Origin: Exiguobacterium sp. s122
Lineage (GTDB): Bacteria; Bacillota; Bacilli; Exiguobacteriales; Exiguobacteriaceae
Reading direction: 5' to 3'
Assembly: GCF_018618475.1 (NCBI RefSeq)
Contig: NZ_JACSMD010000003.1
Coordinates: 62,001-126,000, forward strand
DNA length: 64,000 bases
In this document: piece by piece, positions 60,591 through 63,910 of the stretch
Position numbering within the stretch: position 1 is the stretch's first letter
Layout: every line of letters starts with the position of its first letter
Notes under the pieces: model-generated
Told to the model about the DNA's origin: nothing
Databases searched by the model: none
Seen by the model: the letters and a program-made list of their open reading frames with translations, nothing else
Program-made: the position numbers and the translations under genes

Positions 60591-60719
60591 ATGCGTAAAA
60601 ACGAAGATTGTTTGAAATGTCACATACTTCTGTGATGAAGCTACCTGTTCTCCTGTATAATAAATCCATACGATCAACAGGTACGAGACATTCATAAAGA
60701 ATGATGGAGGGAGCAGGGC

Positions 60720-61441: not shown

Positions 61442-61470
61442 AAACCGTCTCGTCACGAGACGGTTTTTCT
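61442..61470 (+). terminator. terminator after fnr
   Basis: AAACCGTCTCG / CGAGACGGTTT stem with TTTTT. Confidence 0.88.
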
Positions 61471-61532
61471 TATGGCATTTGTGAATTTTATGTGTTGAAA
61501 CTAAGCAAAAATGATGTGATTGTCACTTTTCG

Positions 61533-61576
61533 AGTGATAAAAGTCACATATTAATAGGGATTCGATTTCATACAAT
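61533..61576 (+). promoter_or_regulatory. FNR box and -10 of the oxidase operon
   Basis: AGTGA-TAAAAG-TCACA (61533-61548) matches TGTGA-N6-TCACA at nine of ten positions. The -10 TACAAT is at 61571-61576. With the start about seven bases beyond, the box centre lies near -41.5, the classical class II activation position. A second palindrome GTGA-TTG-TCAC is just upstream (61516-61526). Confidence 0.85.
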
Positions 61577-61611
61577 GAAGGTGGAAAACAAAGCGGAAAG
61601 GGGTGCTTCAC

Positions 61612-61731
61612 GTGGATAAAAATAATGGGAAAGAGCCAGACTTGAGAGGCACGTTCACATCAGTCATGATCGTCGCGGGCGTCATCATCGCCATGTGGTC
61701 GTCGGTCTTTTACTTATTCCTTACACGATAA
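61612..61731 (+). CDS. cytochrome oxidase subunit IIa-like small protein
   Basis: The 39-residue product starts at GTG 61612 after AAAGGGG. A polar head (GKEPDLRGTF) is followed by one helix (VMIVAGVIIAMWSSVFYLF). This matches the single-helix subunit IIa of ba3-type oxidases both in size and in position, directly before subunit II. No separate ORF call would catch it because it is so short. Confidence 0.8.
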   Translation: MDKNNGKEPDLRGTFTSVMIVAGVIIAMWSSVFYLFLTR

Positions 61732-61752
61732 TTCAGAAAGGAGTGACAGACA

Positions 61753-62223
61753 TTGCATATTCATAAACTTGAAAAATATTGGTTAGGTTTCGGCATCATA
61801 TTATTAGGCGTCTTCTTGACCGTCCTTGGCATTTCTGCATTTGCAGCAGGGAATCAACCGGCTTCTGATGCCGACTTGATCGATCCGGCCACCGTCCATC
61901 AGACGGCGCCGTTCGACAATCCGGGCTTACACAAAATCGGGGACAACGAATACGAGCTCGTCATGGTTGCCCAAGCGTTCACGTTCACACCAGGTAACGT
62001 CGAGATTCCAAAGGGTGCGAAAGTGACGTTCCTCGTCACGTCACCTGACGTCGTCCACGGCTTCCAGCTCGTCGGGACACCGGTCAACATGATGGTCGTA
62101 CCGGGTCATATCAACTCACTCACGTATACGTTTAAAGAAACAGGAGAATTTCTAATCCTTTGTAACGAATATTGTGGGACCGGTCATCATATGATGTCGA
62201 CAAAAATTAAGGTGGTGGAGTAA
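61753..62223 (+). CDS. ba3-type cytochrome c oxidase subunit II
   Basis: The 156-residue protein has one N-terminal helix and an outside cupredoxin domain with the CuA site CNEYCGTGHHMM near the end and an earlier histidine in DVVHGFQL. A single helix is the form used by ba3 oxidases, in contrast to two helices in aa3. TTG 61753 follows GGAGTGA. It receives electrons from cytochrome c and hands them to subunit I. Confidence 0.92.
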   Translation: MHIHKLEKYWLGFGIILLGVFLTVLGISAFAAGNQPASDADLIDPATVHQTAPFDNPGLHKIGDNEYELVMVAQAFTFTPGNVEIPKGAKVTFLVTSPDVVHGFQLVGTPVNMMVVPGHINSLTYTFKETGEFLILCNEYCGTGHHMMSTKIKVVE

Positions 62224-62224
62224 C

Positions 62225-63910
62225 ATGAACGACGTAGCTTCGAAATTAAAACAGTGGGAAATGGAACGGGGTGTGCCGGTACCGAGTATCGGTGTTAAAG
62301 AAGCACGCCTCGCCTATGCCCACGTCGTCATCTCGGTCCTTGCCGTCTTAATCGGTGGGTTGGCGGGACTCATGCAGACATTGATTCGAACCGGTGTCAT
62401 TCCGGAAATCTTCGGTTATTATCAACTGTTGACCGCGCACGGCATCATGCTCGGTCTTGTCTTTACAACGATGTTCATTATCGGTCTTCTTTATGCGCTG
62501 CTCGCCAAGTCGTTCGGACGGTTCGAAGCCTTCCCGACACGCCTCGCCTGGCTCGGTTTTTGGATGATTATCGCCGGTGCGGTGCTCGTCACGATTATGG
62601 TACTCGCCAATAAGGCGACGGTGCTCTATACATTTTACGCGCCGCTCATGGCCGATCCGGTGTTTTATATCGGTCTCGTCTTGTTCGTCGTCGGGACGTG
62701 GCTCTCGGCGTTCGCCATGTTCCGAATGTACGCGGACTACAAGCGAGAGAATCCAGGGATTCACCCTCCACTTCCGGCGTTCATGAGTATTATGACGATG
62801 CTCCTTTGGGTCATCGCCACGCTCGGTGTCGCAGGGACAATCTTGTTCCAATTGCTCCCGCTCTCGCTCGGATGGACAGATACGGTCGGAATCGAGTTGT
62901 CGCGGACACTGTTCTGGTACTTCGGCCATCCACTCGTTTACTTTTGGCTCATGCCGGCCTATATCGTCTGGTATACGGTCGTGCCGAAAGTCATCGGTGG
63001 GAAGATCTTCTCGGATGCCCTCGCTCGAATGGCATTCCTGTTATTCTTGTTGTTCTCGTTCCCGGTCGGCTTCCACCATCAATTGACGGAGCCTGGAATC
63101 GATCCGTTCTGGAAGTTCGTCCAAGTCATTTTGACGTTCCTCGTCGTCATCCCATCGTTCATGACCGCGTTCTCGCTCTTTGCGACGTTTGAACTTCGGG
63201 GACGTACCCTCGGTGCTCGCGGCTTATTCGGCTGGGTGAAGAAGATGCCGTACAGTGACGTCCGCTTCCTCGCACCGTTCGTCGGCATGCTGTTCTTCAT
63301 TCCGGCGGGTGCGGGCGGCATCATCAACGCTTCCCATCAATTGAACGCGATGGTGCACAACACATTGTGGGTGACCGGTCACTTCCATATCACGGTCGGT
63401 ACGGCTGTCGCCTTGACGTTCTTCGGAACCGCGTATTGGCTCGTCCCTGTCCTACGTGGTCGTACCCTCACGAAAGCGATGAACCGCCTTGGATTACTTC
63501 AAACGGCAACATGGGCGTTCGGGATGTCGATTATGTCATATGCGATGCATATCTCAGGACTCCAAGGGAACCCGCGACGAACCGGTCCGGCGACATATTT
63601 CTCGGACGCGCTCACGCGGGAATGGATTCCGTACCATATCGCCATGGCAATTGGTGGGACAATCCTCTTACTCTCGGTCCTCATCTTCGTCTACTCGATG
63701 TTCAATTTATCGTTCCTCGCACCGAAAGGAGAGGAAGAGTTCCCGCTCGCCGAGACGGAAGAGGCCGCGATGGAGACGCCGCGCTTCTTCGAGAACTGGA
63801 AGCTTTGGATCACCGTCACGTTTGTCTTGATTGCGTTCGCTTATACGATTCCGATTTGGCACTTGATTGAAAGTGCGCCACCTGGCGCACGCGGTTGGGT
63901 GCTCTGGTAA
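62225..63910 (+). CDS. ba3-type cytochrome c oxidase subunit I
   Basis: The 561-residue protein has about 13 helices. The low-spin heme histidine is in TAHGIMLGL (about 72). Other ligands: HPLVYFWLMP (CuB histidine with tyrosine cross-link), FHHQL (CuB histidines) and TGHFHITVG (heme histidines). The B-type heme-copper family generally lacks the D proton channel, fitting a high-affinity oxidase. RBS AAGGTGGTGGAG upstream of ATG 62225, three bases after subunit II. Confidence 0.94.
   Translation: MNDVASKLKQWEMERGVPVPSIGVKEARLAYAHVVISVLAVLIGGLAGLMQTLIRTGVIPEIFGYYQLLTAHGIMLGLVFTTMFIIGLLYALLAKSFGRFEAFPTRLAWLGFWMIIAGAVLVTIMVLANKATVLYTFYAPLMADPVFYIGLVLFVVGTWLSAFAMFRMYADYKRENPGIHPPLPAFMSIMTMLLWVIATLGVAGTILFQLLPLSLGWTDTVGIELSRTLFWYFGHPLVYFWLMPAYIVWYTVVPKVIGGKIFSDALARMAFLLFLLFSFPVGFHHQLTEPGIDPFWKFVQVILTFLVVIPSFMTAFSLFATFELRGRTLGARGLFGWVKKMPYSDVRFLAPFVGMLFFIPAGAGGIINASHQLNAMVHNTLWVTGHFHITVGTAVALTFFGTAYWLVPVLRGRTLTKAMNRLGLLQTATWAFGMSIMSYAMHISGLQGNPRRTGPATYFSDALTREWIPYHIAMAIGGTILLLSVLIFVYSMFNLSFLAPKGEEEFPLAETEEAAMETPRFFENWKLWITVTFVLIAFAYTIPIWHLIESAPPGARGWVLW

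Follow-up and report, generated by a model that had tools for sequence, protein, structure and literature searches.

A predicted class II Crp/Fnr promoter upstream of a ba3-type cytochrome c oxidase operon in Exiguobacterium, and its counterparts in other Bacilli

In Proteobacteria, the low-oxygen Crp/Fnr activators FNR and FixK switch on the alternative terminal oxidase cbb3. B. subtilis is not known to possess a ba3 oxidase. The B. subtilis Fnr consensus, as quoted from Reents 2006 in Table 1 of PMC8151001, is TGTGA-N6-TCACA, and the ligands of the B. subtilis Fnr cluster are C227, C230, C235 and D141 (PMC3520743); the B. cereus Fnr is able to bind DNA without its cluster (PMC3520743). FNR sites have been predicted at the ba3 operons of Candidatus Accumulibacter, where the transcript is lower when FNR is active (PMC6446978). 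The ba3 oxidase of Thermus thermophilus (PDB 1ehk, 1xme) comprises the subunits I, II and IIa, and NO-reductase relatives contain an asparagine in place of the cross-linking tyrosine (PMC3475470). Here we describe an Exiguobacterium locus in which an fnr-type gene adjoins a ba3 oxidase operon (Table 1). It lies in a window of 64 kb, the term used here for the whole stretch of DNA that was analysed, which spans 62001-126000 of contig 12. The nearest named relatives of the fnr gene are all from Exiguobacterium, which places the DNA in that genus.

Table 1. Predicted features of the fnr-oxidase locus (window coordinates)
Feature	Position	Strand	Basis and remarks
fnr-type Crp/Fnr regulator, 237 aa	60720..61433	+	C225, C227, C230, C235, D142; recognition helix RETVNR
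Intrinsic terminator after fnr	61443..61465 (stem)	+	10-bp stem, loop TCA, T-run
Distal element TGTGAATTTTATGTG	61480..61494	+	Direct repeat of TGTG with 11-bp period, lying 53 bp 5' of box
Inverted repeat GTGATTGTCAC	61516..61526	.	Invariant in 19 genomes of own genus, not in sister genus
Extra TCAC half-site	61523..61526	.	7 bp upstream of box GTGA; TCAC 34/38, TCAT 4/38
Predicted Crp/Fnr box AGTGATAAAAGTCACA	61533..61548	+	Sequence match, conservation in order
-10 hexamer TACAAT	61571..61576	+	22 bp 3' of box, no -35 hexamer; 38/38 genomes
Predicted transcription start	61583	+	Inferred from -10
Cytochrome oxidase subunit IIa, 39 aa, GTG start	61612..61731	+	Pfam CoxIIa; conserved in relatives
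Oxidase subunit II	61753..62223	+	CuA motif CNEYCGTGHHMM
Oxidase subunit I, Thermus ba3 type	62225..63910	+	Cross-linking Tyr in FGHPLVY

The oxidase operon (61612-63910) has the gene order IIa, II, I. Its subunit I is homologous to that of the Thermus ba3 oxidase over 530 residues (E about 1e-119) and contains the cross-linking tyrosine, and it is accompanied by a CuA subunit II and a short subunit IIa, in agreement with the ba3-type cytochrome c oxidase named in the earlier note on this DNA. Subunit IIa scores 19.7 bits with Pfam CoxIIa, slightly below the cut-off of 20.7, and its placement and conservation are as expected. The subunit IIa reading frame, the terminator after fnr and the direct repeat TGTGAATTTTATGTG were absent from that note. 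The genome encodes one other COX1-family oxidase, and the ba3 enzyme is described here as a back-up respiratory oxidase, beside an oxygen-sensor gene.

Between fnr and the oxidase operon, the sequence AGTGATAAAAGTCACA (AGTGA-TAAAAG-TCACA) is found exactly at 61533-61548, and the hexamer TACAAT at 61571-61576, both as first noted. The box matches the B. subtilis Fnr consensus TGTGA-N6-TCACA, and WGTGA-N6-TCACW occurs nowhere else in the 64 kb of the window, against an expectation of 0.24; at least one was present in 22 of 100 shuffled windows. With a start at 61583, seven bases past the -10 hexamer, the centre of the box lies at -42.5, and with a start at 61582 at -41.5; the GTGA-N6-TCAC match at 61533-61548 thus has the class II layout (centre at -41.5 +/- 1 and a fixed distance to the -10 hexamer), the start position being predicted from the -10 hexamer. 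A good -35 hexamer is lacking, the best match reaching just 2/6 in 34 of the 38 genomes of the order.

These 38 genomes represent two genera. All of them have fnr directly 5' of the oxidase, exactly one strict box (GTGA-N6-TCAC) in the intervening region, and a distance of exactly 22 bp from the box to a TANAAT hexamer, which bears out the class II position proposed for the box. The 22-bp spacer itself varies in sequence, with a mean commonest-base frequency of 0.58 vs 1.0 in the box core. Because Fnr is just 57-60% identical between the two genera, the conserved arrangement is not a mere reflection of recent ancestry. In G034 and G026 (L113, L116), about 500 extra bp separate fnr from the oxidase promoter; fnr is that much further off, yet the distal element, box and -10 hexamer stay together. 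A class II Crp/Fnr reading of the promoter is strongly supported by these comparisons of sequence, since the arrangement of box and -10 hexamer is conserved within and beyond the order, including at ctaA (see below).

A second palindrome next to the box, GTGATTGTCAC, had been suggested to allow binding of two dimers. As a second Fnr dimer site it was rejected: its half-sites are separated by 3 bp, not 6, and the palindrome is not kept in the sister genus, where just the TCAC half persists. Two helical turns (21 bp) separate this extra half-site from the second half of the box. More conserved than the palindrome is the distal element (61480-61494), which occurs as TGTGAAYTTTNTGTG in every one of the 38 genomes, 53 bp before the box (52 bp in two). 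TTTGTGAAT may be a ResD-like motif, and ResD as the protein bound at the distal element is a guess. The ResD consensus in PMC8151001 differs from TTTGTGAAT, and a genome-wide pattern search gave matches at control level when two mismatches were allowed. A further exact copy of TGTGAATTTTATGTG occurs about 110 bp upstream of an amino-acid-carrier-like open reading frame (L257, G000:C2:219444-219458).

The fnr gene ends (61433) 100 bp before the box. Its product scores above the Pfam cut-offs for PF00027, PF13545 and PF00325, corresponding to a cNMP-binding-like domain and a Crp helix-turn-helix, and its cysteines follow the pattern C225-x-C227-x2-C230-x4-C235. The C-terminal cysteine cluster and the upstream location described earlier were therefore both found, with synteny in 38/38 genomes. 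C227, C230 and C235, together with D142, constitute the three cysteines and one aspartate of B. subtilis-type ligands, the aspartate occurring in an RDL motif and corresponding to the B. subtilis ligand aspartate; this comparison was made by residue number, with the numbers published in PMC3520743. The protein falls outside the E. coli-type FNR subfamily NF008365, its score being 35.1 bits where the cut-off is 228. Its helix RETVNR presumably suits TGTGA half-sites under the general Crp rule. Five Crp/Fnr proteins are encoded in the genome. One is a second Fnr, 30-33% identical to the neighbouring Fnr, with a similar helix (RERVNR) and an identical set of C-terminal cysteines, present in 7 of the 38 genomes and missing from the other 31. 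The remaining three have the helices YRHVNR, YRHLNR and RETVSS, without the RExxxR pattern and without the C-terminal cysteines. The gene for the second Fnr (L021, G000:C2:156902-157555) adjoins a molybdopterin nitrate-reductase-like cluster with ferredoxin and Rieske.

Autoregulation of fnr through the same box was considered and discarded, as no strict box is present upstream of fnr in the 30 genomes checked. The promoter region of fnr (60610-60640 in the window) lacks an Fnr box but has an extended stretch, AAGATTGTTTGAAATGTCACATACTT, that is almost unchanged across 19 genomes of the genus. A terminator search recovered part of the 61443-61465 stem (1 terminator vs 1.2 expected). Given this terminator after fnr, the oxidase operon probably has a transcript separate from that of fnr.

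Counts of the motif across the 2.98-Mb genome (20 sites, vs 18 for a reversed control) are at chance level, and were dropped as evidence by themselves. Requiring a -10-like TANNNT 21-22 bp away leaves 7 matches, vs 1 and 1 in the controls; among them are the ctaA/ctaB intergenic region, in both directions, and the ric/scdA gene. The ctaA promoter has a TGTGAT-N5-TCACA box followed at 21-22 bp by TAGAAT or TAGGAT in all 30 relatives tested. The intergenic site itself (L015:1501-1516, G000:C1:1684763-1684778) is of class II Fnr type and has a -10-like hexamer on each side; the ctaA-side arrangement is kept in 30/30 relatives. As ctaA encodes heme A synthase, this shared arrangement would link oxidase synthesis with heme supply. 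Directly 5' of the ric/scdA-type iron-sulfur repair gene, a box is followed by TACGCT at 21 bp (L032:10350-10365, G000:C2:165349-165364). Sites matching TGTGA-N6-TCACA also occur at ldh, adhE and an NADH-oxidase-like gene (L009, L013, L035); of these, the ldh and adhE sites have a closer likeness to Rex operators.

Across 398 genomes of the class, a ba3 subunit I homologue was found in 169. Outside the order, the analysis covered 99 upstream regions in which a subunit II was recognisable, the best-scoring among the matches listed and thus not a random sample. A strict box was present in 62 of these 99, compared with 2, 1 and 0 matches for control patterns (reversed halves, N5 and N7) in the same 85 kb, and among the matches listed a strict box precedes a ba3 oxidase at least once in 17 of 25 families. 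Downstream of the box in these listed regions, TA...T is found at 21 bp in 53/62 and at 22 bp in 3/62; compared with 21 bp in other Bacilli, the 22 bp of the present order is one longer. Presence of the box is associated with presence of an Fnr homologue (E at most 1e-25, among the matches listed): both occur in 53 genomes and neither in 28, with 7 and 9 discordant, the 9 having the box without a homologue (Fisher p = 1.7e-10, treating related genomes as independent). The fnr gene adjoins the oxidase in several f3 genomes, and is near it in G075. The ba3 upstream regions of G271 and G128 (L137, L139) contain two strict boxes 65 bp apart. NO reductases were ruled out among the box-less ba3 homologues, as all 24 checked keep the oxidase tyrosine.

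Taken as a whole, 61480-61583 is quite likely an activator-dependent class II Crp/Fnr promoter of the ba3 oxidase operon on which the neighbouring Fnr acts. At low oxygen, this Fnr would keep its [4Fe-4S] cluster (C227, C230, C235, D142) intact, and as a dimer would bind 61533-61548 at about -42 and contact RNA polymerase, with transcription starting near 61583. There are good grounds to infer from the sequence both that Fnr is the protein binding the box and that the oxidase would be activated at low oxygen. The same Fnr probably also turns on ctaA, the oxidase needing the product of heme A synthase, and the distal element (61480-61494) is probably the site of a second factor. Counting against this reading are the cluster-independent DNA binding of B. 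cereus Fnr (PMC3520743) and the spacing of 22 bp in this order in place of 21.

The identity of the binding protein bears on the most serious alternative, in which the box is bound mainly by the second Fnr or by one of the three cysteine-free paralogues. The earlier note spoke of "the fnr gene", and the gene in question does adjoin the oxidase in 38/38 genomes, but it is not the only one of its type in the genome. Such binding by another family member is suggested by the presence of five Crp/Fnr proteins, by the similar helix and identical C-terminal cysteines of the second Fnr, and by the 9 genomes outside the order with a box and no listed homologue at E 1e-25. It is nevertheless unlikely, because the second Fnr is found in just 7 of the 38 genomes, yet box and spacing in all 38, and the three paralogues lack both the RExxxR pattern and the C-terminal cysteines. 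A different doubt concerns the signal and the sign of the response, the neighbouring Fnr controlling the oxidase but sensing chiefly nitric oxide, or repressing instead of activating. In its favour, NO is known to react with FNR clusters, and the ric/scdA repair gene of this genome has a possible class II site in front of it. In Accumulibacter, ba3 transcripts drop when FNR is active (PMC6446978). A position near -42, a fixed -10 distance and the lack of a -35 hexamer are, however, the layout of activation, making this reading very unlikely.

The core GTGA-N6-TCAC is also shared by the consensus of the NADH/NAD-responsive regulator Rex, TTGTGAAW4TTCACAA (PMC2883068), and the adhE and ldh sites of this genome resemble Rex sites. 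However, a Rex operator (TTGTGAA-N4-TTCACAA) requires an A after GTGA, where every listed box of the order has T or C and only 2 of the 62 elsewhere have A; the leading TT is missing from the box, and a repressor has no need of an exact -10 spacing. With base preferences against it, the Rex operator was rejected at this box, and we consider it highly improbable. A chance match without function would fit the genome-wide count (20 sites against 18 for the reversed pattern), but is refuted by conservation with exact spacing in 38/38 genomes; the 62 boxes among the 99 listed regions elsewhere, against 0-2 in controls, likewise leave its probability close to nil.

The activator-dependent class II promoter may have a wider significance. 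It is an evenly balanced proposition that this promoter is the ancestral, class-wide form of ba3 control in Bacilli, to which Exiguobacterium adds, 53 bp upstream, another conserved activator site and also an extra half-site; the low-oxygen switch would then have two inputs and be shared with heme A synthesis. The distribution across the class is the most interesting part: 17 of the 25 families sampled have the same box, at near-equal spacing, ahead of the ba3 oxidase, which points to a general rule, testable in any tractable member. The proposed switch offers a concrete and testable explanation of when Gram-positive bacteria turn to the ba3 oxidase. It also suggests that the role of Fnr, studied in Bacilli mostly in connection with fermentation and nitrate respiration, extends to driving an enzyme that consumes oxygen when growth is microaerobic. 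A search of the open literature yielded no description of ba3 oxidases under Fnr control in Bacilli, most subscription journals being outside the search. An Fnr-type switch of alternative oxidases is already known; the new element is the ba3 oxidase of Bacilli as its predicted target, a reading that is well supported.

Among described systems, the B. subtilis Fnr and its regulon share with this locus the box consensus, the cysteine residue numbers, the aspartate ligand position and the Crp-type helix; by contrast, fnr here adjoins the ba3 oxidase operon, and B. subtilis fnr is part of narK-fnr. The likeness to the FNR/FixK-driven cbb3 of Proteobacteria is a low-oxygen Crp/Fnr activator on an alternative oxidase, here predicted, whereas the oxidase is a B-type ba3 enzyme and the sensor has another cysteine arrangement. 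The Accumulibacter ba3 operons have an upstream FNR motif in common with this one, but belong to a Proteobacterium, and the predicted sign there is repression vs activation here. Finally, the Thermus thermophilus ba3 oxidase has a homologous subunit I and the same three subunits, and differs in operon order and in the Fnr-type control proposed here.
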